Virus record (IMG/VR): IMGVR_UViG_3300008113_000082
Span: 80,451 to 113,906 of that record
DNA length: 33,456 nucleotides
Strand: one strand, 5' to 3'
From: a virus
Both the position numbers and the translations under genes were made by a program. A model generated the notes under the pieces. It searched no databases. It was not told where the DNA came from and worked only from the letters and a program-made list of their open reading frames with translations. Of the stretch, positions 1-32,714 are shown in pieces (positions within the stretch are counted from its first letter, which is position 1; each line of letters begins with the position of its first letter).

Positions 1-1907
1 GCAAAGAACTTTTTAACAGCTTTGTCGTCCTCGCCCTCTTTACCTAGCTCACCAAATCCAATAGTATTATTTTCATTATCGCGAGCACCTAAGTTGCTGG
101 TCATAATTAAAATGCAATTACGTCCGTCTGCAACCTTTCCATTAGAACCAGTTACAAATCCGTTATCCATGAATGCTAACAGAATGTTTGTAACGTCTGG
201 GTGTGCTTTTTCAACTTCGTCTAATAATAAAATACAATTAGGAGTTTCTTGTAGTTTAGTAATTAACTGACCAGCATTGTCTTCATACCCCACATAGCCA
301 GGAGGTGCACCAATTAATCGAGACACTGAGTGTTTTTCTTGATATTCGCCCATGTCAAAGCGCACAAGAGGCATACTCATCTTTTCACTCAATTGTTTTG
401 CAGTTTCAGTCTTGCCACAACCAGTTGGCCCTAAAAATAAGAAACTACCAATAGGCTTATTGGGCGATTTCATACCTGCCTGTGCCACAAAGATTTTATC
501 AAGCAACGTGTTAACAGCAGTATCCTGACCGTATACCGCAGTTTTCATTCCGTCCTCTAATCCAGAAAGATTTTTGCTTTCTTTCTGAGCCACTGTTTCT
601 AATGGCATATTAATCATCTTACTTAACTCGTAAGTAATTTGTTCAATGTCAACCAATTGTTCAACACCGTCCATATCTGGATCGTCTTTAATTTTATAAC
701 GTGCGGCAGCACAATCTAAAATATCAATTGCTTTATCTGGCAATTTTTTATCTGACATATACTTAATAGATAACTTGACAGCTTGCTCAATTGCTGCATC
801 AGTAATCCTAACATTATGATGTTTTTCATAATATTTTTTAATACCCTTAAGGATCTTAATAGTTACTTCTGCAGTCGGTTCGTCAATAGTAACACGTTGG
901 AATCTGCGCATCAGCGCACGATCCTTTTCAAAGTACTTGCGATACTCTTCCCATGTGGTCGAGGCAATTAACTTAATTGTACCTTTAGTGAGAATTGGCT
1001 TAAGCATATTGGCCATGTCATTAGAACTTTGGCTTGAAGCTCCTGCACCGTTGATCATGTGTGCTTCGTCGATAAAAAGAATAATTTTTCCTTTCTTTTC
1101 TAATGCTCCTAACACAGCTTTAAGACGTTCTTCAAAATCTCCACGATACTTACTGCCAGCAATCAATGAACTAACGTCAAGTGTGTATACTTGATGATCC
1201 TGAATAAATTTTGGAACTTTCTTTTCAAAAATCTTACGAGCAAGCCCTTCGGCAATAGCAGTCTTACCAACACCGGGCTCGCCTACCATTAATACATTGC
1301 ATTTATTGCGTCGTGCCAATACTAGTTGAATTTTTTCTAGTTCTTCATCACGACCAATTACCGGATCAATTTTACGTTGTTTTGCTTGTAGGCTAAGGTT
1401 TGTACAGAATTGATTAATAATTCGCTCCATTTGATTAGGTGTTGTGATTGCATTTTCAGTTTCGTGTTCTTCGTCACCTATCATTTCTTGGAAATATGTA
1501 ACAAATTTATCTTTAGTTAATCCGCCTTTTGTTAGGAAATAGAATCCAAACGAATTTTTTTCACTAAGGATGCCAATAACTACATCGGCAATTTCGATAC
1601 GTTGGCGACCGCTAAACAGTACCTGTGTAAAACAACGATTCAACACACGCTCTACCGCATGTGTCTTTTTTGGTTTATCGTTACTAGAATTTTTAATATC
1701 GTCTAAATTATTTTTAAGATAATGTTCTAGATTAGTTTTGATAAAATTTGAATCAACACCAAATTTTTCTAACATCTCGTAGGATTCTTTGTCACTCATT
1801 ATACCATATAAAATATGTTCAATGGTGACATATTCATGCTGGTGTTGTTTAGCAACACTTACTGAATATTCAAAAACCGTTTGTAATCCTTGACTTGGTT
1901 CGATCAT
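1..1907 (-). CDS. clpA: ClpA-type AAA+ unfoldase, C-terminus cut by window edge
   Basis: Reads from ATG at 1907 to the window edge (635 residues; the family is usually about 750, so roughly the last 120 are missing). Order: Clp N-domain (about 1-145, in ClpA the ClpS-binding domain), AAA+ module 1 with Walker A GEPGVGKT (209-216) and Walker B IILFIDEAH, then AAA+ module 2 with Walker A GPTGCGKT (493-500) and Walker B CILLLDEVEKAHPDV. It lacks the long coiled-coil middle domain of ClpB. An IGF tripeptide at 616-618 sits where E. coli ClpA has its IGL ClpP-docking loop, so this reads as a proteolytic partner unfoldase and not a disaggregase. The start overlaps the def stop as TAATG, implying translational coupling in a dnaJ-def-clpA operon. 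No clpP is visible, so host ClpP is the presumed peptidase (inference). The ClpA family call is firm; the role in infection is unknown. Confidence 0.95.
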   Translation of the reverse strand, partial: MIEPSQGLQTVFEYSVSVAKQHQHEYVTIEHILYGIMSDKESYEMLEKFGVDSNFIKTNLEHYLKNNLDDIKNSSNDKPKKTHAVERVLNRCFTQVLFSGRQRIEIADVVIGILSEKNSFGFYFLTKGGLTKDKFVTYFQEMIGDEEHETENAITTPNQMERIINQFCTNLSLQAKQRKIDPVIGRDEELEKIQLVLARRNKCNVLMVGEPGVGKTAIAEGLARKIFEKKVPKFIQDHQVYTLDVSSLIAGSKYRGDFEERLKAVLGALEKKGKIILFIDEAHMINGAGASSQSSNDMANMLKPILTKGTIKLIASTTWEEYRKYFEKDRALMRRFQRVTIDEPTAEVTIKILKGIKKYYEKHHNVRITDAAIEQAVKLSIKYMSDKKLPDKAIDILDCAAARYKIKDDPDMDGVEQLVDIEQITYELSKMINMPLETVAQKESKNLSGLEDGMKTAVYGQDTAVNTLLDKIFVAQAGMKSPNKPIGSFLFLGPTGCGKTETAKQLSEKMSMPLVRFDMGEYQEKHSVSRLIGAPPGYVGYEDNAGQLITKLQETPNCILLLDEVEKAHPDVTNILLAFMDNGFVTGSNGKVADGRNCILIMTSNLGARDNENNTIGFGELGKEGEDDKAVKKFF

Positions 1908-3242: not shown

Positions 3243-3251
3243 AGTCTTTAT

Positions 3252-3280
3252 ATTATACGATAAAAAAAGGACTGTGTCAA
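3252..3280 (-). promoter_or_regulatory. Consensus sigma70 promoter for the dnaJ-def-clpA operon
   Basis: On the minus strand TTGACA (3280-3275), a spacer of exactly 17 bases, then TATAAT (3257-3252). Both hexamers match the sigma70 consensus perfectly. Start of transcription is expected at about 3246-3243, essentially at the dnaJ-like ATG (3242), giving a leaderless message. The -35 box lies in the loop and adjoining arm of the upstream terminator hairpin. Confidence 0.85.
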
Positions 3281-3291
3281 GCAGTCCTTTT
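3262..3291 (-). terminator. Rho-independent terminator of the lysis / small secreted protein unit
   Basis: On the minus strand a 10-bp stem (3291-3282 with 3274-3265, arms AAAAGGACTG and CAGTCCTTTT) with a 7-base loop, running into a T-tract. It lies 25 bases after the stop of the small secreted protein gene and before the dnaJ-like gene, so it separates the lysis unit from the chaperone operon. Confidence 0.85.
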
Positions 3292-3315
3292 ATTTAATAC
3301 AGATTTACTGAGTGC

Positions 3316-3531
3316 TTATTTTTTCTTTTCTGGAACTGGAGTACCGTCGTGTTTTTTATGCACTTTGATAGTTTTGCAAGTTTGTTTTACGCTACCATCT
3401 TTGTTCTTAACTGGTTTCTTATCCTTGCCAATTGTGTCTTTGCAGACCTGTTTAGTTTTTGCTGCCCCATCTGCTGCAAAAACAGGAGCAATAAATGCTA
3501 ACGATATTAATAATACTAATATTTTTTTCAT
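3316..3531 (-). CDS. Small secreted Lys-rich protein with two cysteines
   Basis: A 71-residue protein with a clear Sec signal peptide: MKK, a hydrophobic core about 4-16, and probable cleavage after VFA (about residue 19). The mature part is about 52 residues, very rich in Lys, and built from two related halves (KQVCK...KKPVKNKDG and KQTCK...KKHDG), each with one Cys. The two Cys could form a disulphide in the periplasm. SD AAAGGA lies 8 bases before the ATG. It is 12 bases downstream of the holin-like gene and ends before a strong terminator, so it is the last gene of the lysis transcript. I do not recognise the family; periplasmic or wall-binding roles are possible but not shown. Confidence 0.75.
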   Translation of the reverse strand: MKKILVLLISLAFIAPVFAADGAAKTKQVCKDTIGKDKKPVKNKDGSVKQTCKTIKVHKKHDGTPVPEKKK

Positions 3532-3543
3532 TTTATTTTCCTT

Positions 3544-4029
3544 TTACAGTTCTGGTTCAGCAGCCGGTGCTGGACCTAATTTGCCGTTACCTGCCGCTGT
3601 TGGTGCTGATTTTGTTGCTATTGGTGTTGCGCCCCAGCTCGGTGCCGGTGTAAAACTTGTGCTCGGTGCCGGTGTACCAAACCCACCTGATTGTGGTTGA
3701 CCAAATGTTGTTGTGACGCTCTGTGATACTGGTGCAAGTCCGCCATTATTTGCCCCACCTAGTTTTTCTTGTGTTCGTCCCCATGCTGCCAAACCTAGTA
3801 CTGCACCCATGGCAATATGAAACAGTCCAGCACCTTGCAGTGTTATTGGTTGCCATTGAGTTTTAACTTCACCACCACCTATAACTTGGATCACGCTCCA
3901 TAGTACAGGGAACAACATAAAATCTGCTGAACATACAGCCATGTACATCCAACCCATCATTGGACGCCATTTTGAATTCATCCAATCTTCTTTTTGTTGT
4001 TCGCTTGCGCTTTTAATTTCCTCTGCCAT
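3544..4029 (-). CDS. Holin-like membrane protein with Ala/Pro-rich tail
   Basis: A 161-residue protein. A charged N-terminus is followed by WRPMMGWMYM and hydrophobic segments at about 24-50 and 64-84, then a long low-complexity tail (about 90-161) rich in Gly, Ala, Pro, Ser and Thr with FGTPAP / FTPAP-type units. The WRP-xx-GW membrane start resembles the 3TM holin group found beside phage endolysins, and it lies in the same transcript as the GH19 endolysin and spanins, which supports a role in opening the inner membrane. The tail is longer than I would expect for such holins. SD AGGAG lies 8 bases upstream of the ATG. The call is probable, not certain; a virion or other membrane role remains possible. 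Confidence 0.65.
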   Translation of the reverse strand: MAEEIKSASEQQKEDWMNSKWRPMMGWMYMAVCSADFMLFPVLWSVIQVIGGGEVKTQWQPITLQGAGLFHIAMGAVLGLAAWGRTQEKLGGANNGGLAPVSQSVTTTFGQPQSGGFGTPAPSTSFTPAPSWGATPIATKSAPTAAGNGKLGPAPAAEPEL

Positions 4030-4051
4030 AGTTTTCGCTCCTATTAGTTTA

Positions 4052-4168
4052 TTATTTCTTAGCTAACATTGTTTGAATCTTTTCCTGAATTGCTTTGGCC
4101 CAGAATGGCTGAGGAAAATTCCATCCTACAAATGCTCCTACTGCTACCCATAATAAAATATCTAACAT
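4052..4168 (-). CDS. 38-residue membrane microprotein in lysis cassette
   Basis: A short reading frame from ATG at 4168 (SD GGGAG 7 bases upstream) to TAA at 4054-4052. The product begins MLDILLWVAVGAFVGWNF, one hydrophobic helix, followed by PQPFWAK and an amphipathic Lys/Gln tail ending LAKK. It sits between the i-spanin gene and the holin-like gene with gaps of 26 and 22 bases. The strong ribosome site, compositional match to a one-pass membrane protein and conserved operon position make it likely real. Small one-pass proteins in such positions can be holins, antiholins or pinholins, but no such function can be shown here. Confidence 0.7.
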   Translation of the reverse strand: MLDILLWVAVGAFVGWNFPQPFWAKAIQEKIQTMLAKK

Positions 4169-4194
4169 AACAACGCTCCCTATTGTTTATACTA

Positions 4195-4809
4195 TTATTT
4201 AACGCTTTCAAAGATTTTCTTCTGCTCTCGATACCATTCTTGCCACATTCTCAATTTTTCTGCGTTTTCGTGGCAGGCTCCGTAGTTTTCAACGACTCTG
4301 TCGAGGAGCTGACTGGCTTCAATGCCACTGGGGGTTCCATCAGTTGCGGCGGCACGCTCGGGAACTTCATTACGACTGGCGCTGTCGTGCAAGCTGACAG
4401 TAGACTTAGGCAAAGTACACTGAGCATCCAACTGTTTACCCGCAACTTCTTTGATAATTTCTCTGTTGACATAGACATTTTCCTTAATGACTTTAACTTT
4501 TGTAACTATTTTTGTTTCGATGACTGTGTTAACCTGCTGGCTTTTTTCTTCAGCAACCTTAACTTTGGCTTCTAATTCTGCCACACGAGCCTGCCATGCA
4601 GACTGTACACCGTAGCCACCGTAAAAGTAAGCCCCGATAACTAGCAATACAACACCAACAACTTCTGCTGGTAATTTGTACTGACCCATCATGGGTATCC
4701 ATTGTACTAATTTGCTGGCAATGTACAGCACGACACCTGCTGACAGCATGATATAGTATATAAAAATAAAAATGCTTTCAGGCATAATGCTTAGTAACCA
4801 ACCAAACAT
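4195..4809 (-). CDS. Inner-membrane spanin-like protein (i-spanin / Rz-like), two TM segments
   Basis: A 204-residue protein with two predicted membrane segments (about 10-32 and 47-65), a charged coiled-coil-like stretch (about 70-115, AELEAKVKVAEEK and KVIKENVYVNREIIKEV) and a soluble C-terminal half. Spanin identity rests on position (next to GH19 endolysin) and on the o-spanin lipoprotein frame nested inside it, the classic Rz/Rz1 arrangement. It would link the inner membrane to the outer-membrane lipoprotein in the last lysis step. Lambda-type Rz has one N-terminal TM, so the extra segment is unusual and may add a holin-like function or change topology. SD AGGGG 6 bases before the ATG is embedded in the last codons of the endolysin gene. 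Confidence 0.75.
   Translation of the reverse strand: MFGWLLSIMPESIFIFIYYIMLSAGVVLYIASKLVQWIPMMGQYKLPAEVVGVVLLVIGAYFYGGYGVQSAWQARVAELEAKVKVAEEKSQQVNTVIETKIVTKVKVIKENVYVNREIIKEVAGKQLDAQCTLPKSTVSLHDSASRNEVPERAAATDGTPSGIEASQLLDRVVENYGACHENAEKLRMWQEWYREQKKIFESVK
4251..4472 (-). CDS. Outer-membrane spanin lipoprotein (o-spanin / Rz1-like), nested
   Basis: A frame wholly inside the i-spanin gene, same strand, different frame; 73 residues from ATG 4472. AAGGA 8 bases upstream favours this ATG over the one at 4478, which is only 2 bases from it. The N-terminus has Lys/Arg, then a hydrophobic core and lipobox LSAC followed by TTAPV, a signal-peptidase II site. The mature part is Pro/Ser/Thr-rich (PSVPPQLMEPPVALKPV), as in Rz1 proteins. 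Known family behaviour: the lipoprotein is anchored in the outer membrane and contacts the i-spanin C-terminus across the periplasm, causing membrane fusion at lysis. A chance shadow frame would be unlikely to have SD, signal, lipobox and Pro-rich tail together. Confidence 0.8.
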   Translation of the reverse strand: MSTEKLSKKLRVNSWMLSVLCLSLLSACTTAPVVMKFPSVPPQLMEPPVALKPVSSSTESLKTTEPATKTQKN

Positions 4810-4810
4810 A

Positions 4811-5437
4811 TCAAACCCCTAGTACGTGCAATGCGTGTTCGTAATGCTTGATTCGATCTTCTAGGCCAATAGTGCCACCGTTAATGCGTTTTGTTAATGT
4901 GAGGATGTCGCCCTTGTCTGCCCATTGATTTAGATTATTTGTTTCCCAAAACCAACAAGCTGATTGTAAGGCACCTTCAAATGTTGCTAGGTATTCTGGA
5001 ACTTCTTCGACAGTCATTTCAAGGCTTTCGGCAAATGCTGTGTAGTTTTGCTTGCCGGTAAGTTGTATAAGGCCTCTACCGCAGTAGCGGAATCCGTCAC
5101 CACTTGCTTCATCGCCATTGCCCATTCGATTGCCATAAACTCTGTTGGCAATTTTTTCACCTTGCTTTTCGTATTGTTTTGCAATTCCTAGATCTGGAAA
5201 ATACTTTGGAAATACTTTTACAAGACTTTCTGCACGATAGTTTAAATTTTCTTTTAATGCAGTGAACCCTGCACTCTCGTGAGCGCACTGAGCAATAAAC
5301 GCTGCTACACGCTGTGGAGTATTAATTTCATATTCTGGAAGTATATTACTACAAGCATCATACCATTGATCCACATAGGGATTCTTTGGAATCATTTCTT
5401 GTAATTGTTCTTTTGTAAATTCAAATGTAAAGCTCAT
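4811..5437 (-). CDS. Endolysin, glycoside hydrolase family 19
   Basis: A 208-residue single-domain GH19 (chitinase-like) muralytic enzyme that cuts the glycan strands of peptidoglycan. Visible signatures are AQCAHESAGF with probable catalytic Glu54, ENLNYRAE with the second acid at about Glu63, and YCGRGLIQLTGKQNY, the substrate-groove motif. No signal peptide is seen, so export to the wall should depend on the holin. The ATG overlaps the upstream stop as TAATG, with AAGGA 7 bases upstream. It heads the lysis genes i-spanin/o-spanin, microprotein and holin-like protein. Confidence 0.93.
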   Translation of the reverse strand: MSFTFEFTKEQLQEMIPKNPYVDQWYDACSNILPEYEINTPQRVAAFIAQCAHESAGFTALKENLNYRAESLVKVFPKYFPDLGIAKQYEKQGEKIANRVYGNRMGNGDEASGDGFRYCGRGLIQLTGKQNYTAFAESLEMTVEEVPEYLATFEGALQSACWFWETNNLNQWADKGDILTLTKRINGGTIGLEDRIKHYEHALHVLGV

Positions 5438-6177
5438 TAATCTATCCTTTGTAACAGCATTGCCATGGTTCCGTTTTCAAAAACAAAACTCTCACCAATT
5501 TTATTAATATTATAATCGCCTAATACTTTAGTAAGCCAAAATACTTCGCTAGTTGCTTTTTCATCCAATGTAATTGCATCGGTAGTATTTTCTAAGACTG
5601 ATTCCTTTTCACCTTCTTTAACCATACGTAGTTGAATTTTTTGATTAAATGGTTTATAGATAGTGATTACGTCACCGTCTAATGTAAAGTCGTCCATTAG
5701 TGTTTTACTAAAGAAACGTTTTACGCCTTCTGTTTTGTACTTGTTCATTAACCCATCGTATGCACCTGCATCAGACGGAACAATTGATTTTAATTGTTGT
5801 TCTGTAACTTCGTGGACACCTTGATGTTTGTAATATTTAAATTTAAAATCATCAATGCCTGTTAACCTACGTACTCCGTAAGTGATTTCTTTGATGTGCT
5901 CTGCAAGGCGACTAGTCCTCGGTAGCTCGACAAATACATTGTATTCGCCATTTTCATTTTCGCCAGAGCTTACGTCGGCATCAAGTACAAAGCTGTAGCC
6001 CTTTTCAATAAATTCCATTAGGTCTTTTGCTGGATTACGATCTTTAACGCCAAAGCTGATAACACATACATCGCGATCCTCGCCCATCTTTGATTTGTAG
6101 GTATCAACTTCTAAAAGTGAGTGTACCATGTCTTGGAGGTCGTTGGCTCTAAGCCCTTCATTTAAAGTATTAAACAT
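5437..6177 (-). CDS. Conserved T4-like phage protein of unknown function
   Basis: A 246-residue acidic, soluble protein with no signal peptide or membrane segment. Readable landmarks are LLEVDTYKSKMGEDRDVCV, FIEKGYSFVLDADVSSGE and ITYGVRRLTGIDDFKFKYY. I associate this pattern with proteins of cyanophage-like myoviruses but know no function. I chose ATG 6177 over an upstream ATG at 6237: it gives an 8-base overlap with the preceding gene (ATGTTTAA), has GGATA about 8 bases upstream, and avoids a 68-base overlap. It is coupled to the 173-residue protein upstream and ends as TAATG into the endolysin gene. The pair may be virion or morphogenesis proteins expressed late with the lysis genes (inference from the late-type promoter). 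Confidence 0.8.
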   Translation of the reverse strand: MFNTLNEGLRANDLQDMVHSLLEVDTYKSKMGEDRDVCVISFGVKDRNPAKDLMEFIEKGYSFVLDADVSSGENENGEYNVFVELPRTSRLAEHIKEITYGVRRLTGIDDFKFKYYKHQGVHEVTEQQLKSIVPSDAGAYDGLMNKYKTEGVKRFFSKTLMDDFTLDGDVITIYKPFNQKIQLRMVKEGEKESVLENTTDAITLDEKATSEVFWLTKVLGDYNINKIGESFVFENGTMAMLLQRID

Positions 6178-6691
6178 TTGCAGTATCCTGTTGTATCTGT
6201 TGTTCACCAGCATCTTCTTGAGATTGTGCAACCCCATTTTGATCTAAGATGTCTTGAACTTTATTTGTATCAAGATTTCTATGGCCACGATCAATGTCTG
6301 CCATTAATTTTTTAGGCATTTTAATTTTAACCATCCAAATTTCTTCGCGGTCAATTTTACCTTTCTTTGTTCCGGGACGAATATCGTCTGGATCTTTGAT
6401 TTTACGAACTTTGGTTATGTAAGTTTCTGCATACTGTACTGTACAACCGTAGTCTAGAAGTTTCTTTCCGCCTTCTGGATCGGGCATTTTATCTTTATCC
6501 CACATGAATGTACACTCTATAAAATAGCGTGATTCTTTAGGACCAGCTACAAGTTCGCCGTCCATCCAGTTATCGTAGACGTAGATGTCTAGTTCGTCAA
6601 TAACTCGCTCGAAATTTTTAAGCATATTCAAGCTGTTATTTGACCCGTATATGTTTTCTATATTAGAAATAATGTCTTTTAAATCGGCCAT
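6170..6691 (-). CDS. Conserved T4-like phage protein of unknown function (possible virion protein)
   Basis: A 173-residue soluble protein. Landmarks are ERVIDELDIYVYDNWMDGE, ECTFMWDKDKMPDPEGG, DPDDIRPGTKKGKIDREE and IKMPKKLMADIDRGHRN; the tail (about 150-173) is Gln/Asp-rich and probably disordered. I chose the ATG at 6691 because GGGAG lies 5 bases upstream; the in-frame ATG at 6703 supplies that SD sequence itself. It is first gene of a unit that continues through the 246-residue protein and the lysis cassette, behind a GATAAATAC late-type motif. I recall similar sequences in cyanophage genomes but cannot assign a job. Confidence 0.8.
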   Translation of the reverse strand: MADLKDIISNIENIYGSNNSLNMLKNFERVIDELDIYVYDNWMDGELVAGPKESRYFIECTFMWDKDKMPDPEGGKKLLDYGCTVQYAETYITKVRKIKDPDDIRPGTKKGKIDREEIWMVKIKMPKKLMADIDRGHRNLDTNKVQDILDQNGVAQSQEDAGEQQIQQDTANV

Positions 6692-6705
6692 GTTTTCTCC
6701 CATTT

Positions 6706-6714
6706 GTATTTATC
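6706..6714 (-). promoter_or_regulatory. Putative T4-type late promoter
   Basis: GATAAATAC on the minus strand, matching the core of the T4 late promoter (TATAAATA), 15 bases upstream of ATG 6691. Transcription would start near 6701 and give a short leader carrying the GGGAG ribosome site. The same nonamer occurs just upstream of the gene starting at 13601. Assignment is by resemblance only. Confidence 0.5.
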
Positions 6715-6734
6715 GTCAAAACTTAAACGTAACT

Positions 6735-6740
6735 TATAAT
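6735..6740 (+). promoter_or_regulatory. Possible -10 element of phoH promoter
   Basis: TATAAT on plus in the divergent spacer, 93 bases before the phoH ATG. No convincing -35 box lies 16-18 bases upstream. An alternative late-type GTTAAATAC lies at 6755-6763. Either start would place the hairpins at 6765-6804 in, or immediately at, the phoH leader. Confidence 0.35.
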
Positions 6741-6764
6741 ATTCTTTCAAGATAGTTAAATACT

Positions 6765-6812
6765 TTTGTGTTCGGCTACGGACACAAACGGTTTGAGGTC
6801 CGTGCCTACACG
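6765..6812 (+). promoter_or_regulatory. Structured phoH leader with two competing hairpins
   Basis: Hairpin 1: 6765-6774 pairs with 6779-6788 (10 bp including one G-U, loop GCTA). Hairpin 2: 6777-6783 pairs with 6798-6804 (7 bp, one G-U), with an inner 4-bp stem 6785-6788 / 6792-6795 closed by loop CGG. The two share 6777-6788 and so exclude each other. A third small stem (6801-6804 / 6809-6812) is compatible with hairpin 1. None is followed by a T-tract, so they are not terminators. The phoH SD GGAGG begins at 6818. Confidence 0.5.
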
Positions 6813-6833
6813 TAAAAGGAGGGCTAACCTTAT

Positions 6834-7571
6834 ATGAAGCGTAAAAGAGCAGCAACAGCACTGAAAGCTAATCATTATCACGAAGAGTCTAATGTGATAA
6901 ATCTAGTAGACAAAAAATATCAAAAACGTCCACGAGTTCAAATATATCCCAAAAATCTTAGTCAAGAAGGCTATCTGTTAAAGCTAAACGATCCAACTAA
7001 AATGATCGTGTTTGCTACAGGTCCAGCAGGCACGGGTAAAACCATGTTGGCTGTACAATGGGCTGTAGATCAACTCAAATACGGTGATGCTACTAAGATT
7101 ATTGTAACTAGACCAGCTGTTTCAGTAGACGAAGAGCATGGGTTTTTACCAGGTGACCTAAACGAAAAAATGGCTCCCTGGACACGCCCTATTTTTGACG
7201 TAATTGCAGAAAATTACAATGCAAAAGAGATTGAACACATGGTTCTAGAAGGAATCATTGAAACCAGTCCACTAGCATACATGCGAGGAAGAACGTTTAA
7301 AAACGCTGTCGTCATAGCCGATGAAATGCAAAACACAACACCTAGTCAGATGAAAATGCTGCTAACTCGTCTAGGGCAGGGATCTAAAATGGTCGTTACT
7401 GGTGATCTACAGCAGGCTGACCGCCCAAGCAATAATGGGTTGCTTGAATTCCTGAAGTTATATAATAACTTTGAAAATCACAGGTATGTAGACATTTGTC
7501 ATTTTTCTGTGGATGACGTAGAACGACATGAAGCTGTTAAGGAGATATTAGCAATCTACGGAGATCAATAA
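6834..7571 (+). CDS. phoH: PhoH-like P-loop ATPase
   Basis: A 245-residue phage PhoH. Walker A is GPAGTGKT (63-70), Walker B VVIADEMQN (159-167), with the family signature TRPAVSVDEEHGFLPGDLNEKM between them and VTGDLQQADRP after. A basic N-terminus of about 45 residues precedes the ATPase core. PhoH is common in marine phages; the bacterial family is linked to RNA metabolism and, in some species, to phosphate regulation, but its phage role is unsettled. I see no obvious Pho box. Start ATG 6834 has GGAGG 11 bases upstream. It is one of only two plus-strand genes, alone between a divergent promoter region and a bidirectional terminator, so it is regulated separately. Confidence 0.93.
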   Translation: MKRKRAATALKANHYHEESNVINLVDKKYQKRPRVQIYPKNLSQEGYLLKLNDPTKMIVFATGPAGTGKTMLAVQWAVDQLKYGDATKIIVTRPAVSVDEEHGFLPGDLNEKMAPWTRPIFDVIAENYNAKEIEHMVLEGIIETSPLAYMRGRTFKNAVVIADEMQNTTPSQMKMLLTRLGQGSKMVVTGDLQQADRPSNNGLLEFLKLYNNFENHRYVDICHFSVDDVERHEAVKEILAIYGDQ

Positions 7572-7596
7572 AAAAGGGCCATAGGGCCCTTTTTTT
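7571..7596. terminator. Bidirectional rho-independent terminator
   Basis: A 10-bp stem, AAAAAGGGCC (7571-7580) with GGCCCTTTTT (7585-7594), loop ATAG, and T-tracts in both directions. It lies between phoH (plus) and the amidohydrolase gene (minus), whose stop codons flank or touch it, so it ends both converging transcripts. Confidence 0.92.
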
Positions 7597-8452
7597 AATT
7601 CTTGCCCGGACCGTTGGGCCAGTCTCTATGAATTAGATTTCTTATCGGAAAATCATAAAAGAAGTACTGGGTGCCGTGACTGGGAACTTGCACCACCCAC
7701 TTGCCGCCTATCAGTACACCACTGGGACTGCTTGTTTGTCCATCCCAGTCGTCACCGTTCATGAGATTGCAATTGTCTACAGTAATAAAAGGACCACCTG
7801 CTAGATAAGATACAATTTGCAAGTTTGCGTTATGCCAGTCGTACATTACCTTGTCGTAAACGTCACCGACATTTCTCATGGCGTTTGTGGCATGTATGCC
7901 AATCATAACTCCAGCTTCTCTAGCCATTGACGGTAGATTAGGAAAGTTTGATCGACCGTAAAGATCTTTACATATAAATCCTGCCGCACTAATAGCAATA
8001 GGATTTCCAGTTTCATCGGTGCCTGGAACAAAACAAGCACCGGGTGTTTTGTTAGGAATAATACCTATATCGTGATCCTCTGGACAAATTAGAGTTTTAT
8101 TAACTGCCCCAATAAATTTTCCTGTAGAATCGTATACTCTAAGTTGATTTCTTTTAACTTCTTTGCCACCGGGATCAGTGTCAACCCATAACGTTCCTAA
8201 AAATAATCCCACAGACTTTTTAACAGCATAAGATACAATTTCTTTTTCCGCAGCTACTACATCGCCGTTGATATTAAAACCTTTTATGTATCCGCTCAAT
8301 GATGCTTCGGGGGTAACCAAATAATGTACCTCATTATCGCTAGCCCAATCAATTGCAGTCTTAAGCGTAATAATATTTTCTTCGACAGTTTTTCTAACAG
8401 GAATCTGCGCTCCTGCAAATCTTAAAAATGATTTCATTCTATTTCCATCCAT
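7595..8452 (-). CDS. Carbon-nitrogen hydrolase (nitrilase/amidase superfamily)
   Basis: 285 residues. The superfamily catalytic triad is readable: Glu49 in VTPEAS, Lys119 in AVNKTLICPEDHD and Cys161 in GFICKDLYG. These cytosolic enzymes hydrolyse amides, nitriles or carbamoyl groups, often releasing ammonia. The substrate cannot be told from the sequence, and the region after Cys161 (SMAREAGVMIGIHATNAM) fits the family fold. The start is ambiguous: ATG 8452 has GGGAG 7 bases upstream, whereas ATG 8437 makes the classic ATGA overlap with the upstream stop. I report the longer form. It is last gene of the long minus-strand unit, coupled to the DUF2452-like gene. As a phage gene it is best read as an auxiliary metabolic gene, possibly for nitrogen salvage (inference). 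Confidence 0.88.
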   Translation of the reverse strand: MDGNRMKSFLRFAGAQIPVRKTVEENIITLKTAIDWASDNEVHYLVTPEASLSGYIKGFNINGDVVAAEKEIVSYAVKKSVGLFLGTLWVDTDPGGKEVKRNQLRVYDSTGKFIGAVNKTLICPEDHDIGIIPNKTPGACFVPGTDETGNPIAISAAGFICKDLYGRSNFPNLPSMAREAGVMIGIHATNAMRNVGDVYDKVMYDWHNANLQIVSYLAGGPFITVDNCNLMNGDDWDGQTSSPSGVLIGGKWVVQVPSHGTQYFFYDFPIRNLIHRDWPNGPGKN

Positions 8453-8904
8453 GTATGGTCTCCCATATACTTAACCTGAGTTTGATATACATAATCGACC
8501 GGAGCCCCACTACTCCAATCTGTTGGGCTGTGATGTGTCAATATCATTTTTTCTTTCCTACTGTCCCAAACTAACCAATAACACTGCCCCATTACTATTT
8601 GAAATTGATATTCGGCAGCATGCACTGCATCAGTAACATCCAGTCTTCTCTTAATATCTTGAGCCTGCTTTTCTAATACAGCTACCAGTTCCATAATACG
8701 ATCATATTCTTGCTGGGCATAAATCCTAGCATGATTAATCATGATGTCTTTTTGTTTAGTAACAGGAACTAAATCAAATTTTGGACCACCTGCTTCTGTA
8801 GGATAGGGAGTTACATTCCTATTAAAAAATGGAATAATCGATCCGCCTATTTTAGAATCGTAACTGTTTCTTCCTTTTGCTAAATTAGATTTTTTTTTAG
8901 ACAT
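8434..8904 (-). CDS. DUF2452-like phage protein
   Basis: 156 residues, soluble, function unknown. PYPTEAGGPKFDLVPV (about 33-48), a helical Arg/Glu/Gln-rich middle and an aromatic C-terminal half (QCYWLVWDSRKEKMILTHH) match my memory of the DUF2452 family, found in some T4-like phages and also in eukaryotes (C1orf50). I start at ATG 8904; the frame could begin at a TTG 12 bases upstream, but ATG is preferred. It overlaps the clamp loader stop by 8 bases, and its own stop overlaps the amidohydrolase start region, so all three are translated together. Family call by recollection of motif, not by search. Confidence 0.75.
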   Translation of the reverse strand: MSKKKSNLAKGRNSYDSKIGGSIIPFFNRNVTPYPTEAGGPKFDLVPVTKQKDIMINHARIYAQQEYDRIMELVAVLEKQAQDIKRRLDVTDAVHAAEYQFQIVMGQCYWLVWDSRKEKMILTHHSPTDWSSGAPVDYVYQTQVKYMGDHTWMEIE

Positions 8905-9817
8905 CAATCTTTGCAAGTTTGACCAGTGTGGCTGCTAAATTAATTTCAGAATCAGCGCATACTACATGATCTACCAGTCCTTGCTTAATTACAAGAATAG
9001 CAGTATTTTGATTTTGCTCAGATCCAAAAATTGCAAGGTTGTCGTATAACCAACGATACACTTCTTCCATTTCTTCTGCACGAATCTTACCACACAACAG
9101 TTTACGAGCGTCTGTAATCTTGCCGGCCTTAAACAGTTCAACCATATCGAACTTCCAGTCTGCTTCACCACCATCTGCTTTGTTAGGCGCCGCTAATTTT
9201 CCTTCGTTGACATTTTGTTGTACAAGATTAATGCATTTACGCAAATCCGGATAAGCAACTTTGACATAGTTATCTAATGTGTCAAGATCAAAGTCTACTC
9301 CTTCTTCTACAAGAATTGTAGCAACACGGGCAGTATACTCTGTCATGTCTGTGCGTTCAACATGAAATCCTTGACATCTGCTGTGGAGAGCAGGAATAAT
9401 TCGATTGGGATAGTTACAGGTAAGAATGAAACGACTAGTCTGACTATACTCTTCCATAACCCCGCGTAGCGCCGCCTGTGCGTTGGGACTCAGATAATCT
9501 GCCTCATCTAGCAGTACAACTTTAAACGGACCAAATGGAATCATTTGAACAAAGTTTGTAATTTTGTCACGAACGTCGTCTACTGAGTTAGTACGACTGG
9601 CATTGATTTCTAGCACATCGTAATCTTCAATGCCAATTTCATTAATAAGAATTTTAGCCAGTGTAGTCTTGCCAATACCGGCCGCACCACTTAGTAACAG
9701 ATGTGGGATACTTTTGTCTTTGATCCATGTGGCAATTTGTTTGCGCTGATGATCATCTCTAAAAACATAACCGTCTGCGGTATTCGGACGATACTTTTCT
9801 ACCCATAAGTCTTTCAT
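8897..9817 (-). CDS. 44: Sliding-clamp loader large subunit (T4 gp44-like)
   Basis: A 306-residue AAA+ ATPase of the clamp loader, which with the small subunit (gp62) opens and loads the gp45 clamp on DNA at the phage replication fork. It shows WVEKYRP at the N-terminus, Walker A GAAGIGKT (44-51), Walker B VVLLDEAD (100-107), NYPNRIIPALHSRCQG with the SRC arginine-finger motif (146-148), and a C-terminal helical collar domain. Length is close to T4 gp44 (about 320). The ATG overlaps the upstream stop as ATGA, with AAAGG 7 bases before it. Neither gp45 nor gp62 is recognisable next to it here, so the replication cluster must continue elsewhere or be dispersed. Confidence 0.93.
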   Translation of the reverse strand: MKDLWVEKYRPNTADGYVFRDDHQRKQIATWIKDKSIPHLLLSGAAGIGKTTLAKILINEIGIEDYDVLEINASRTNSVDDVRDKITNFVQMIPFGPFKVVLLDEADYLSPNAQAALRGVMEEYSQTSRFILTCNYPNRIIPALHSRCQGFHVERTDMTEYTARVATILVEEGVDFDLDTLDNYVKVAYPDLRKCINLVQQNVNEGKLAAPNKADGGEADWKFDMVELFKAGKITDARKLLCGKIRAEEMEEVYRWLYDNLAIFGSEQNQNTAILVIKQGLVDHVVCADSEINLAATLVKLAKIDV

Positions 9818-11617: not shown

Positions 11618-12016
11618 TTATTGATTAATAAAATCTTCTGGGCGAATGTTTGATGACAACGATTCAAATTCTTGCCCAATATAAAAATCATTTGGTTTTT
11701 CGTCAGCTACTGCTATGACAGACTTTGTTTCTACTTTTTGAAATTCTTTGTCACCGTCACCGTCGTTGATTTTAATCTTGCGAGTCCAACGTCCATGTTC
11801 AATAAGAATCCATTGACCTTCTTTAACAAAATCAATTTCTGAACCAACCTTGTATACTTTGGCCCAGCGTGGTTTAACACCATGTGCTTTACCGTCGTCG
11901 CTGGCAATAAAAATGCCGCCATTGGATACTTGCTCGCCCATGTGCATGTCAACAACAAGGATGTCTTTTGGCAATGCACGAATTTTAACCTTCTTGGCTT
12001 CAAATGCAAAGCTCAT
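11618..12016 (-). CDS. GroES-like co-chaperonin (T4 gp31-like role)
   Basis: 132 residues from ATG 12016 (AAGG 5 bases upstream, one base after the previous stop). The early part KIRALPKDILVVDMHMGEQ matches the start of the GroES beta-barrel. SNGGIFIAS (31-39) sits where GroES has its mobile loop GGIVL, which docks on GroEL. WAKVYKVGS (51-59) and VKEGQWILIEHGRWTRKIKI (64-83) match the later barrel strands, and VIAVAD (100-105) the closing strand. It would cap host GroEL to fold phage proteins, as T4 gp31 does for the capsid protein. The C-terminal acidic tail (about 106-132) is extra. Divergent from bacterial GroES, so a probable call; it adds to the J-protein and ClpA of the same genome. Confidence 0.72.
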   Translation of the reverse strand: MSFAFEAKKVKIRALPKDILVVDMHMGEQVSNGGIFIASDDGKAHGVKPRWAKVYKVGSEIDFVKEGQWILIEHGRWTRKIKINDGDGDKEFQKVETKSVIAVADEKPNDFYIGQEFESLSSNIRPEDFINQ

Positions 12017-12017
12017 A

Positions 12018-12245
12018 TTAACCTTTTCTACGTGCGGCAATTTCTTCTTGTACAGCTCTAGGATTTGCTGCATAGTAGTCTTGCAAAATTTGTTCTTTTG
12101 TACGCACAATTTTGCCGCCAACACCGATTTCGTCTCCTCGAGCATTTACTTTCATATTGCCTACTGCTGGCAACAGCTCATTTTGAAGATTTAACTTTTC
12201 CATGTCAACTTCTTTACCGCGCATACTCATGTGAGTTTTACCCAT
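12018..12245 (-). CDS. Small conserved phage protein, function unknown
   Basis: 75 residues, ATG 12245 with a very good SD (AAGGAG). Landmarks are KTHMSMRGKEVDMEKLNLQN, VGNMKVNARGDEIGVGGKIV and a helical basic end ending ARRKG. Probably partly disordered; no membrane segment. I have an impression of similar short proteins in cyanophage genomes, again without function. One base separates it from the GroES-like gene, and one base from the DnaE-like gene upstream. Confidence 0.7.
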   Translation of the reverse strand: MGKTHMSMRGKEVDMEKLNLQNELLPAVGNMKVNARGDEIGVGGKIVRTKEQILQDYYAANPRAVQEEIAARRKG

Positions 12246-12246
12246 T

Positions 12247-12714
12247 TTATATCTCCTTAAAGAATTCTTCTATTGGTATATTGTATTTAATACTGTCAAT
12301 CTTATGGACCCCTATGATGTGGAGAACATAACTGGCTACACTAGAGCCACGTCCTACACCCCAAACTACATTATTGGCCCTTAATGTGTCTACTACATAT
12401 TTCATAGTTCTAAGTACTGGTATCATATTGTGTTTTTCAAACAATTTTATTTCTTGAATTACACGCTGGTGATTAATACTGGGACTATTTTGAATTAGAA
12501 ATTCTGTAATGTTTAGTTCTTGATATTCTTTTGGAAGATGCCAATTAGCAACATCTATAGTTTGTTTTGGTCGGGGATAGTTTAAATGCTCAATATCTAA
12601 TCTTTCTAGGTATTGAGTTAATTCGGCAGAATCTGCAAGACACTTGGCCAGTATGTCTGGACCATGCCTTAATACACCTTCTATAAGTTGTTCTTGTGTG
12701 CTGTTAGTCCACAT
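12247..12714 (-). CDS. DNA polymerase III alpha (DnaE) palm-like fragment protein
   Basis: 155 residues. The C-terminal half MKYVVDTLRANNVVWGVGRG (104-123), continuing SSVASYVLHIIGVHKIDSIK and YNIPIEEFF, closely follows the DnaE segment that runs from the start of the palm through G-x-GRGS to LKYNLLFERF. The catalytic Asp residues of DnaE come after this point and are absent, so it cannot be a polymerase alone. The N-terminal half (HLNYPRPKQTIDVANWHLP) is not clearly DnaE. Length and clean gene boundaries (coupled on both sides) argue for a stable phage family and not a decayed gene. It could bind DNA or dNTP, or modulate host Pol III (speculative). Confidence 0.75.
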   Translation of the reverse strand: MWTNSTQEQLIEGVLRHGPDILAKCLADSAELTQYLERLDIEHLNYPRPKQTIDVANWHLPKEYQELNITEFLIQNSPSINHQRVIQEIKLFEKHNMIPVLRTMKYVVDTLRANNVVWGVGRGSSVASYVLHIIGVHKIDSIKYNIPIEEFFKEI

Positions 12715-12937
12715 TAATTAATTGACCCAAATCGCCGTCCAGTTGCTGGTTTAGTCTAATTGCATTTCTTTTAGACATCTCTTGTTTATACATTATAACA
12801 AAAGTTGCGAGTTGTGTCAACATTTCTGTCTTGCCTAATCGTTGAGCAACAAAATATTTTTTGCTCAATTCCAAGATTTTGTCTTCAACCTCGTTATCTT
12901 TGAGGTGACTAAGATCATCGACTAGGGGGCTAAACAT
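12704..12937 (-). CDS. Small helical phage protein, function unknown
   Basis: 77 residues from ATG 12937, one base after the previous stop; a longer frame from about 13000 would overlap the fibre-like gene and has no better SD. Fully helical, charged: DDLSHLKDNEVEDKILELSK, KYFVAQRLGKTEMLTQLATF, MYKQEMSKRNAIRLN. It overlaps the DnaE-like gene by 11 bases. No motif of known function; the composition would suit a small adaptor or coiled-coil protein. Confidence 0.65.
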   Translation of the reverse strand: MFSPLVDDLSHLKDNEVEDKILELSKKYFVAQRLGKTEMLTQLATFVIMYKQEMSKRNAIRLNQQLDGDLGQLINVD

Positions 12938-13644: not shown

Positions 13645-15294
13645 TTAACCTTTTGCTCGTATGCGCACTCTGGGATAAACTGATCCTGATGTAGGTCTGT
13701 TTTTAAATGTGGTTTTTGGCAGACTTTGTCCGCTTACGGGTCTTTCTAAATTATAAAATAGATATCGATTATTTCCGTTATCTCCAAACCATTGATAGTT
13801 TGCAATGCTTGCACCAGTAGTTCCGACTTGGTTCTTTTTGGAATGTGTTATTAGATAAGTTAACGCTTCGCTTGAACCTAGATTTGGATTTTGTTCAGCA
13901 TAACAGGCTAACAGGCCACATACTTGCGGTGATGCCATACTGGTTCCAGAAATGCTACCTAGTTTATAACTGGCATTTCTAGGATCGTTTACTAGGGTAA
14001 TACTAAATTCGGCAGCAGCAGTTGAGTCATAGACTGCGGACGCAATATTGGTTCCCGGAGCCCATACGTCAACTCGGTTGCCAAAGTTACTTGAGCTATT
14101 TTTATATTCTTGTTGGGCACTACCAACATTGCCTACAACAACTACTCCAGGCGCTACAGCAGGACTTGATCCTTGAGAATGAACATAATCAAATCCACCG
14201 CTTCTAATGCTATTATTGTAATCTTGATCGCCACTGTATGCAGAATTCCAAAAACTGTTGCCAGCCGCCGCCACAACAATAACTCCGTCTGCTAGGGCAT
14301 CTGCTACGTCGGCATTGAGGGCAGCATAGGTATAGGGCATTCTATAAAGATATGTGCTGCCAGGAACCGGAACACCGTTTGCTTCCAATATGGTTTTTTT
14401 GGCCGCATCAGTTCCTGACACTGCTGTAGTAACTCCTCTGTAAGTTACACTGGTAATTGACGATAGTTGAATATCATCATACGAGTAGCCCCAACTGTGA
14501 TTGGTTATGGTTGGGTTTCTTTTTCCAGTAGTGGTGTTAACAGTTTTATTTTTATGGAATGCTCTGAGATAATCAAAAATATAAAGTTCCCAGTTGGCAG
14601 GAGAGTTTGCTCCTACATAGCTGAATTCCATGTTATAGATGTTGGCATCACGTGCCCAGCCTTGTGTGTTGCCCGCCACTGTGCCAGCCACGTGTGTTCC
14701 GTGGTTGCTGGAGATATCACTGTAATCATAAGCACCAACAGTGCCTACTCCAACAATACCACTTAACGCAAACCAATTGTATTGATTAACTCTTGATCCA
14801 CCAGTGCCGTCTGCATTAACAGCAAACTCAGGATGAAGGGGATTAATGTGCGCATCGACGACCACAACGTCCACATTCTTTCCTGAGCTGGTTGTAGTCA
14901 CAGTTTGCGTTGTTTGTGTAAATGAAGCATCAGTACCCCAGCCTGCCAATGTGTTGCCTGCTGTGGTTCTATACAGTCCCCAATTTTTATCATTGGCATC
15001 GATGGTAGAATTTTTTTCAAAGTTTCCAGATTGTGTCCAGTGGTGAACTATTTTGATGCCTATGTCTCTAGGAGGACGTTCTACAGCTATTACTCTAGGA
15101 TCAGTTCTTAGTTGAACTGCTTCTTCATCAGACAACATGAAATGCGTGTTTCTACTAAGTTCTCTCAACTGTGTTATGCTAACTTGTCTGTTAGGAATAT
15201 AAAGATTTCCGTTAGGTGACTCCATATCTGCAATAATTGAATCAGCGTCGCTCATTGTCTGAGCAGTAACAACGTATTCTTTTAAGTCGCTCAT
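13645..15294 (-). CDS. Subtilisin-like serine protease (peptidase S8)
   Basis: 549 residues from ATG 15294, with GAGG 6 bases upstream inside the end of the previous gene. Region 1-78 looks like an I9-type propeptide (ending DPRVIAVERPPRD). Catalytic set: Asp147 in VDVVVVDAHINPLHPEF, His198 in SSNHGTHVAGTVAG, oxyanion Asn346 in VVAAAGN, and Ser452 in SGTSMASPQVCG. The usual D-S/T-G after the first strand reads D-A-H, a small deviation; the other motifs are canonical. No signal peptide or membrane segment. It lies inside the fibre block, coupled to a 1272-residue fibre gene, so a virion-associated or virion-processing protease, or one acting on the host surface, is likely (inference). Confidence 0.93.
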   Translation of the reverse strand: MSDLKEYVVTAQTMSDADSIIADMESPNGNLYIPNRQVSITQLRELSRNTHFMLSDEEAVQLRTDPRVIAVERPPRDIGIKIVHHWTQSGNFEKNSTIDANDKNWGLYRTTAGNTLAGWGTDASFTQTTQTVTTTSSGKNVDVVVVDAHINPLHPEFAVNADGTGGSRVNQYNWFALSGIVGVGTVGAYDYSDISSNHGTHVAGTVAGNTQGWARDANIYNMEFSYVGANSPANWELYIFDYLRAFHKNKTVNTTTGKRNPTITNHSWGYSYDDIQLSSITSVTYRGVTTAVSGTDAAKKTILEANGVPVPGSTYLYRMPYTYAALNADVADALADGVIVVAAAGNSFWNSAYSGDQDYNNSIRSGGFDYVHSQGSSPAVAPGVVVVGNVGSAQQEYKNSSSNFGNRVDVWAPGTNIASAVYDSTAAAEFSITLVNDPRNASYKLGSISGTSMASPQVCGLLACYAEQNPNLGSSEALTYLITHSKKNQVGTTGASIANYQWFGDNGNNRYLFYNLERPVSGQSLPKTTFKNRPTSGSVYPRVRIRAKG

Positions 15295-15295
15295 A

Positions 15296-18200
15296 TTAGG
15301 CCTCAAGTTGCAACACAGTTAGTGTAACAGTAATAGCCGCCACACCGCCGCTTTTATTTGTAACTGCTAACTGAATGTTAGTTGAAGGAGTACTTTCATT
15401 GCTGAATCCCATTGAGCCTGGACTAATCAATATAGTTTCTGCTCCTGTGGTAATAACTTCAGCTATCACGCCGGCTCCTGGAAGGGGATCTGTTAATTCA
15501 CTTCGGCCAGCATCTGCTGTTCTACTAGCAACATCAGTGTAAATTCTAACCCAAGCCGCTGCCGAAGTCTGTATTTTATACAACACATAACCTTTGAAAC
15601 CAGTTATGGTTAGATTTCCTGTGGCAGCATTGGCCAAACTAGCTGTGGTAGCATTAGCTGTGGTACGTGTGATAGGTGCTTGATAATCAGTACCTGCCAC
15701 AGCAATGGACAATACTCCTGTTGTGGTTGTGCTTTTTACAATACCTGTTGCCAATGCGCTGGTACCAGGCGCATAATCAGTGCCGCTAGTTGCGGCAGTG
15801 AGGGCGTTTGCTCCGTTACCTTTAACTAACCCACTGATAGTTCCAATTGGTGCTTGATAATCAGTACCAGCTACTGCGGCTGATATGGCAGTGCCATTGC
15901 CTTTCAACACACCGGTGATACTGGTTGTGATTGTGATAGCTGGAGTTGAACTGGCAGTGGCCACTGTGCCTGTAAACCCGTTTGCTGAGGTAACACTTAC
16001 TGTGGTAACTGTGCCAGCACCAGCGCCGCCTGCGGTGGCATCAGCATCATTGATCCAATTGGTACCATTGTACTTTAATACTTGGCCAGTACTTGGGCTA
16101 GTAATAGCTACTCCAGTCAACGTGCTTAAACTGGGAACTCCGGTATAGGCTGTGGTCTGTACTGTAGCATTTGGAAATGTTAAACTGCCATCTGTGCCTA
16201 AGGTCCAAGTTGCTTGAGTACCAAAGCCAGCTCGTAGTTTAATTTTCTGATAAGGTCCGCCAAAGATATTTAATGCACTGTTGGCACTGTTGACTCCGTA
16301 ATCAACTGACTCAACATAAGCATTACCACCGGTGTTTAGAATTAATTTGCCGCCGTTAACTACAACACCGCCAGTGCCATTGCATTCTAGTTCAAGGTTG
16401 GCGTTTGTGACCGTTGTGCTGATTCTATTTCCCACAACAGTGATCTGATCAGTTTTGAACCTTTCAGCTGTGGCAGCACCAGTGACATTTAATGTTGCCT
16501 GTGTGCCTACAACACCAGTCCAGGCTGTGCTTTGAACTGTGTCATCTGGGAATGTCAATGTTTTTGTGAGGCCCGGTGCGTCTGTGCTAAAGGTCCATCC
16601 ATTAAATGCTACAAGAGGTTCGCTACCGTCACCTAGATCATTAGTAATTCTTTGTCCGATCTTAAAGTTAAGGTTGTCTAATTCAGTTAGGTATTCACCG
16701 GTCAGTGATGGCTCACCCTCACCTAATGTATTGATAACTTGGAAGGAGCTGAGAATTCCGTTGGTGCTAACTTCAAATAGAGATTGACCTGTTAGTGACG
16801 GGTTACCTCCTAGATTATTAGTAACTCCGTTTGTGATAACTGTCTTTGATTGAGATACTTCAAGTTGACTTCCGCTGCCGCCCATATCACCGGCAACATA
16901 ATTGCTAATTGTATTACCGGCAATCTTAAGAACACCGTTAGGGAATGTTAGATCCCCATCTTCACCAAACTGCCATCTGCGCAGTGTTGAGTCTGCAAGG
17001 TTGATGTCAATGTTGATGTTGCCGTTGCTCTTGATATCACCTGGTATAGTTAAGCTACCATCGAAGCCAAAGGTCCAAGCCGCAGCGGTAAATAGGCCAT
17101 CATCGGCTTGTATGCTAACATTACCATCACTTGCTAACTTAACATACTGATCGTCATTGCCTAGGAATAATTCTGTAGTGGTTAAGTCTCCGGAAGTGAG
17201 ATGTAAGTGATTGGCATCAGGACCAGTAGTAGGATACACTAATAATTGTTGAGTAGCACTAGTCCCACCATTTGGAGTCAACACAATAGTATTACCGGTC
17301 AAGGCCCCACCTGGAATGCTGCCTTCTGAAATGTTGCCGCCTGAGGGCAATGTTAAACTGCCAGTAGGATCAAATGTCCAGATTCTCGCAGAACTATCCG
17401 ACGCATCAACGGTTATCTTTACACTTTCTGTAGAAGTTAGATAGACATCACCGTTAGTAGCTTTGATTTCTATAGCGTTAGCATCTCCGGCATTGTTGCC
17501 TGCTGATGAGCCAAATATTAGTTTACCACCACCGAAAAGACCACCACCGGCGATATAGCTCAGGCTCTGATCAGTGCCGTCGAGGAATAGATACTTGCCA
17601 GTAGTGCTGTGTGTTGTACCAATGTAGAAACCTGCGGTGTCTGATGCTAAAAGATTCCAGTTTAGTGTTATCCTATCGCTGCCTATGCTATTGTCGCTGA
17701 ATTCCCAAACAAAACTGTTTGTTGTATTGCCATTAGTAGTTGGCATTGTAACGGTCTGTCCAGCGTAGTTGGCACCGTCTGGAAATGTTAACTTGCCATC
17801 CTCGCCAAACTGCCATCTGCGCAGAGTTGAATCTCCAGGGTTGATTTCAATGTTGATGTTGTTGTTGCTCTTGATATCACCTGGAATCTCTAGATTACCA
17901 TCGGGTGTAAATCTCCAATTCCAATTAGCGAAATTTGGAGCAACCACTCCGATGTTATATCCAAATAAATCTGCTGACGTGGTAGTGCGTCTTGACAATG
18001 GTTGGGTATAACCTGTAGGAACAACACCTTGTGGGTCCCAAGTTGTTTTGAATTGAGCCAGCCCTTTACTGACTATATTAAGACCACCAATAATTGTGCT
18101 TTCAATATAATTAACACTTCCAGCACCCTTGTAAATTTGCAGGTCATTTGGAGTCATTAGACTGCCATCTTCACCGAACTGCCAACGGCGCAGCGTTGAG

Positions 18201-32644: not shown

Positions 32645-32714
32645 AGCGGATCCTAAGATTATTACTTGCAACAATATTTAGCCCAAAGTTTTATAAGCCT
32701 AATGTAAATACATT

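Follow-up and report, generated by a model that had tools for sequence, protein, structure and literature searches.

A DnaE palm fragment lacking the catalytic aspartates is retained as a separate gene, mostly in jumbo phages

What a phage would do with a gene for a piece of DNA polymerase III that stops short of the catalytic site is the question raised by a 155-aa ORF in virus record IMGVR_UViG_3300008113_000082. The window (i.e. the whole stretch of DNA that was analysed, 33,456 bases in length) represents bases 80451-113906 of this 113,906-base record. The gene, designated here as the palm fragment, and its characteristic motif were located as follows:

12247..12714, minus strand: palm-fragment gene, 155 aa (evidence: ORF, PF07733, PHROG 11127, hhalign to E. 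coli DnaE and AlphaFold2 superposition)
12340..12360, minus strand: GVGRGSS motif at residues 119-125, corresponding to the GS loop of C-family polymerases

The ORF (12714-12247, minus strand) is intact, and its 155-aa product was matched by PF07733 (DNA_pol3_alpha) with an E-value of 7.7e-11 and 42.5 bits, compared with the curated Pfam cut-off of 23.9 bits, residues 68-153 corresponding to profile positions 10-95 of 260. The resemblance to DnaE noted in a first-pass annotation of the sequence therefore lies far beyond chance, and its description of a T4-like setting was fair, with gp44-like clamp loader, PhoH and baseplate-wedge families being present in the window. In addition to PF07733, the Pfam scan of the protein returned only a DUF6882 match below cut-off, while PHP, thumb and fingers domains were absent. 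PHROG 11127 (171 aa, annotated as 'DNA polymerase') matched residues 9-153 over profile positions 21-171 of 171 (E 6.2e-38, 131 bits), so that the palm-fragment family had previously been catalogued, and the window gene is, as judged by this profile, one of its members. The members of PHROG 11127 share the same end and the same neighbours with the window gene, but differ from it in the first ~53 residues.

To what extent the protein is DnaE-like was addressed by profile and structure comparison, both of which had been proposed in the first-pass annotation as tests of its claim, and both of which sustained it. Using a profile of 89 relatives, hhalign aligned residues 54-155 to residues 272-395 of E. 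coli DnaE (probability 88.6, E 2.7e-6). The AlphaFold2 model of the palm fragment (pLDDT 88.5, pTM 0.70) was shown to superpose on the DnaE palm: the top 15 structural matches are all C-family polymerases (Z 7.4-12.3), and the comparison with the E. coli alpha subunit (2hnh) placed residues 56..155 on 277..396 (Z 9.6, rmsd 2.9, 99 residues). Although the structure tool cautions that helical models can commonly yield Z-scores below about 13, the gap to the next, unrelated rows (Z 2.8) is wide in this case. Matches to Ebola VP35 (Z 2.4-2.8), ranked under the polymerases, were taken as chance. Foldseek alone gave a weaker result for the model (best E 0.03, probability 1.00), with no match at E ≤ 0.001, and in a profile search of solved structures all nine matches at E ≤ 1 were to Pol III alpha (E 0.0041-0.0076).

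For residues ~1-53, which are variable between phages, no match was obtained in either the profile or the structure comparison. Since the match extends back to approximately residue 54, about two-thirds of the palm fragment would be DnaE-like according to alignment and model, with residues 1-53 being family-specific; the earlier suggestion that the entire N-terminal half is unrelated was thus not upheld. The palm fragment is the N-terminal part of the palm, including the GRGS motif, rather than the whole palm, as the aspartate-bearing strands are missing. Compared with DnaE/Pol III alpha (PF07733), it resembles E. coli residues 272-396 in both fold and sequence, but is devoid of the PHP, thumb and fingers regions in addition to the aspartates.

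The position of the C-terminal end was found to be uniform. The last aligned residue of E. coli DnaE is 395 by hhalign or 396 by superposition, i.e. the protein ends ~6 residues ahead of the catalytic D401/D403, as had been recognized from the sequence at the outset; the catalytic aspartates of a working C-family polymerase (D401, D403 and D555 in E. coli) are all absent. In E. coli DnaE, D401 and D403 are located 42 and 44 residues, respectively, past the first G of GxGRGS, whereas 140 of 140 closed family ORFs (a count that includes repeats and near-copies, some contigs having been fetched twice) end 35-43 aa past this residue. The 173-aa ORF of one further locus (L144) has the same kind of end once its frame is corrected, while two others (L029 and L046) are cut by contig ends. 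Consistent with a fixed end, the PF07733 match stops at profile position 89-98 of 260 in 15/15 fragment-bearing records, as compared with a match over positions 3-260 for the full polymerase of the control phage FADO. The closed family ORFs all stop within 43 aa of the motif, and no natural fusion of the palm fragment with a neighbour was observed among them.

Residue conservation was assessed in a set of 89 family rows (<88% identity, without repeats, one X-containing row and the copies from named phages being excluded). No row of this set reaches D403 and only one reaches the position of D401, where it carries Leu; one further row is cut by its contig. The G, G, R, G, S and S residues of GxGRGSS were invariant in 89/89 rows. 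At the position of E. coli Arg390, which we take to be an active-site residue, the family carries Glu (85/89) or Asp (4/89), whereas Arg is present in 75/79 DnaE controls, a proportion that is biased towards Arg, as this letter forms part of one of the two patterns used to fetch the controls. The control set comprised 79 fetched loci, minus three without a GxGRG motif, plus E. coli, FADO and TR-TP2 (79 rows). Of its four non-Arg rows, three were inspected and were attributed to a one-residue shift (L201) or to the wrong motif (L182 and L217); all three were retained in the counts. A role for Arg390 was not found in the accessible portion of PMC3919608. Because the aspartates are missing, catalysis by the palm-fragment protein alone is excluded on sequence grounds, and the reversal of the Arg390 position to Glu/Asp renders it even less likely. 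The label 'DNA polymerase' for this family is almost certainly wrong, as the protein stops just ahead of the catalytic site.

Pairwise dN/dS values of the palm fragment (150 pairs) did not exceed 0.40, with a median of 0.22, and the family is under purifying selection; taken with the uniform ends (140/140), this median agrees with the earlier proposal that the gene is a stable orphan of DnaE ancestry without catalytic function. In a quick tree, 100 family rows were split from 76 DnaE rows by a branch of length 4 with a support of 100, with two out-of-register DnaE rows at the root and a long-branch warning from the tool. This topology fits, without proving, a single origin followed by long separate evolution. 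Separately, the palm genes of five loci (L012, L014, L017, L032 and L035) were observed to share a ~35-residue block (TMDILDWLYQRCPTPEIRERVVEELRLFAKHDMIP and near-copies) that is almost identical between copies that otherwise differ, which suggests recombination within the gene.

The distribution of the palm fragment was examined by tblastn, which identified matches at E ≤ 0.01 in 80 of 50,697 phage records, some of these being full polymerases, such as that of FADO. Among the 60 listed of these 80 records, 58 are at least 284 kb in size, the two short ones being 86 and 94 kb, and the associated hosts include enterobacteria, Pseudomonas, Xanthomonas, Vibrio, Rhizobiales and others. At least 586 relatives are present in IMG/VR, seven palm-fragment loci were found in genome contigs, in metagenome bins, and copies belonging to PHROG 11127 are encoded by phages RaK2, GAP32, CBB, PA5oct, MIJ3, XacN1 and Atu_ph07. 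The palm fragment belongs to one family (PHROG 11127), mostly present in jumbo phages.

A frameshift concealing the remainder of a polymerase had been named beforehand as the finding that would speak against an orphan gene. No such frameshift was detected, the sole six-frame PF07733 match in the 113,906-base record being the palm fragment itself. A single PF07733 match above cut-off per record was likewise observed in 15/15 fragment records, bearing in mind that IMG/VR records may themselves be fragments. Matches to PF07733 below cut-off were seen in W09 (151-226, with three internal stops), W01 (174-226, with two stops) and W04 (49-78). The fingers family PF17657 exceeded its cut-off in none of nine fragment records, with weak matches in three of them. 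E. coli DnaE from residue 386 onward did not match any of nine records, a result to which little weight is attached as the search had no positive control. A split or frameshifted polymerase is accordingly unsupported by the six-frame searches with PF07733 and PF17657. All nine fragment-bearing records that were checked encode their own B-family polymerase.

The genes surrounding the palm fragment were shown to follow a conserved order (77-aa gene, palm fragment, 75-aa gene and GroES-like gene). The features below are given with their frequencies among 142 loci, a number that includes the window, repeats and near-copies, the counts of more distant genes being limited by locus length:

12704..12937, minus strand: 77-aa gene, PHROG 15348 (unknown function), E 1.5e-4; 139/142 loci
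12018..12245, minus strand: 75-aa gene, PHROG 14844 (unknown function), NARGD motif, E 3.5e-16; 136/142 loci
11618..12016, minus strand: GroES-like gene, PHROG 931 (head morphogenesis), weak PF00166 match; 133/142 loci
8897..9817, minus strand: gp44-like clamp loader gene, PHROG 168, E 2e-77; 101/142 loci

The 77-aa gene lies upstream of the palm gene and overlaps it by 11 bases, its start (12937) being deduced from relatives, while the ATG of the downstream 75-aa gene is located 1 base past the palm-gene stop. The start of the GroES-like gene (12016) is likewise a deduced position; its longest ORF starts at 12145 and the median length among the loci is 131 aa. A MazG gene was present in 81/142 loci. 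Both small genes were found in 134/141 loci, with tight packing around the palm fragment in 117/141, and all 55 phage records matching the 75-aa protein of the window were, when compared by eye, among the 60 listed for the palm fragment. Exceptions are XacN1 and RAS14 (L054 and L058), where the palm fragment is present and neither small partner was detected, as well as L055 (77-aa gene missing) and L080 (75-aa gene missing); divergence past detection is possible in all four cases.

The last codons of the palm gene (..EEFFKEI, stop) contain AAGGAG, a likely ribosome-binding site of the 75-aa gene. Among relatives, the spacing between the two genes is most commonly +1 (46 loci), followed by -8 (29 loci), which suggests that their translation may be coupled. 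When modelled alone, the 75-aa protein gave a poor prediction (pLDDT 69, pTM 0.36), which would fit, but does not prove, a need for a partner. Twelve residues of this family (G10, D14, E23, A27, G29, N30, N34, A35, R36, G37, D38 and G44) were invariant in 51 rows. The 75-aa protein of the window was not matched by Pfam, and 51 members of its family gave only stray Pfam matches (E ≥ 0.03). Elsewhere in the window, a 553-aa ORF (13645-15306, minus strand) with matches to PHROG 3677 (protease) and PHROG 9158 adjoins baseplate- and tail-fibre-like genes, and a 2651-aa ORF is located at 24719-32674 (minus strand).

The explanation that we consider best, with a probability of roughly 0.55, is that the palm fragment arose by exaptation of part of a C-family polymerase and is non-catalytic, serving as a binding part that works together with its two small neighbours. 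In the ancestor of a large jumbo-phage group, the N-terminal palm part of DnaE (approximately E. coli residues 272-396) would have been turned into a free gene, which would then have been retained under purifying selection next to two small genes, the presumed direction of descent being from full DnaE to palm fragment. Since catalysis is excluded and a split enzyme disfavoured, binding remains as the probable mode of action. The strand that precedes GRGSS in a complete palm is paired with the aspartate-carrying strand; in the palm-fragment model, no strand was assigned ahead of GRGSS. Because the aspartate-carrying strand is gone, the strand ahead of GRGSS would be expected to need a partner, most likely the 75-aa protein, perhaps in addition to the 77-aa protein. 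The resulting small complex would act for the phage's own benefit, either in replication or in a step close to it, and such a phage-internal role is judged the likelier one because of the long-stemmed separate clade, the fixed partner genes and the charge reversal at Arg390. It is considerably less likely that all the particulars of a fuller version hold, namely that the palm fragment and the 75- and 77-aa proteins form a three-protein complex, in which a strand or hairpin of the 75-aa protein completes the dead subdomain, and which acts in replication as a non-catalytic sensor of triphosphates or primer ends. If true, this complex would serve a large share of the RaK2-, PA5oct- and Atu_ph07-type jumbo phages, as well as many uncultured aquatic phages.

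The gene order of the block can, however, be kept for regulatory reasons, and the palm fragment may fold and act by itself, as its lone model is fairly confident. On this basis, it could be a lone binder of nucleotides or nucleic acids, in which the GS loop holds a triphosphate or a DNA/RNA phosphate, the protein acting as a non-catalytic sensor, primer factor or ssDNA factor. Reuse of the fold for binding nucleotides or DNA had also been considered in the first-pass annotation. Pol beta-like polymerases use the GS loop to contact the incoming nucleotide, and the invariance of GxGRGSS is in keeping with such a role; nevertheless, the acidic residue at the Arg390 position in 89/89 rows and the loss of the remaining nucleotide pocket speak against it, GRGSS may be retained for structure, and we regard this explanation as rather doubtful. 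The palm fragment would be one half of a split polymerase if another phage gene provided the thumb, the fingers and the aspartates in trans; such an arrangement has a precedent in the divided DnaE of phage TR-TP2, but is very improbable given that neither a second PF07733 match above cut-off (15/15 fragment records) nor PF17657 fingers above cut-off (nine records) were detected.

Alternatively, the palm fragment might act against the host, by inserting into, or competing with, host DnaE so as to slow host replication. Competition with, or regulation of, host Pol III had been put forward in the first-pass annotation. Its structural likeness to host DnaE would permit this, and phages with their own B-family polymerase could presumably afford to block Pol III. 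Yet the identity to DnaE structures is only ~15-20%, the existence of a separate, long-stemmed clade in phages of many hosts is unlike the tracking of host DnaE, and the 155 aa include neither the PHP region of DnaE nor its C-terminal regions for clamp and tau binding, so that a decoy or regulator of this kind is quite unlikely. Proximity to the GroES-like gene (median distance 240 bases) could be taken to indicate an accessory function in head assembly, exerted together with that gene; this is very unlikely, as the same region also carries clamp loader and MazG genes, the palm fragment itself contains no pointer to a capsid, and gp162 is not mentioned in the accessible main text of the RaK2 paper. 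That the gene is a non-functional remnant or an annotation artefact is hardly credible: it is indeed shorter than DnaE, but purifying selection, uniform ends, wide occurrence and conserved neighbours refute such an interpretation for the family as a whole.

Part of this picture was already available, as the family is present in databases and its truncation is in print for one phage, the accessible text of the CBB phage paper (2017) stating that a 172-aa copy seems truncated compared with 1120-aa bacterial proteins (PMC5259590). Several phage records nonetheless label the palm fragment DNA polymerase III alpha, and one genome paper, in the portion available, takes the gene as contributing to replication (PMC6102473). 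The open-licence literature yielded no functional study of the family and no statement of the family-wide absence of the catalytic site, the loss of Arg390 and the conserved triplet. The accessible text of PMC9123017 likewise treats the Pfam domain as a polymerase gene; of the genes unique to the largest jumbo-phage cluster (marine, PGC_A), PF07733 is there the only one to occur in half or more of the cluster (51.9%). This marker is probably the palm fragment rather than a polymerase. Correcting the 'DNA polymerase' label alters ideas on how jumbo phages carrying the fragment replicate, and the present analysis points to a conserved gene triplet in these phages.

Two known systems bear a partial resemblance to the palm fragment. 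ImuB, of the Y family, is, according to the accessible text of PMC12926913, also a catalytically inactive polymerase relative that is kept in a complex, although it belongs to another polymerase family and is far larger, the palm fragment keeping ~100 residues of a single domain; the survey described in that text dropped fragments of <200 residues. In Thomasclavelia phage TR-TP2 (L061), a C-family polymerase is spread over separate ORFs, but its first piece keeps PHP-like and GRGS regions as well as the aspartate motif, beyond which it extends for some way, whereas the palm-fragment family has no second half. At the TR-TP2 locus (3026-7651), this 551-aa DnaE piece precedes an HNH gene, after which comes a second 'DNA polymerase' ORF, an arrangement that may represent an intron, an intein or a split polymerase.
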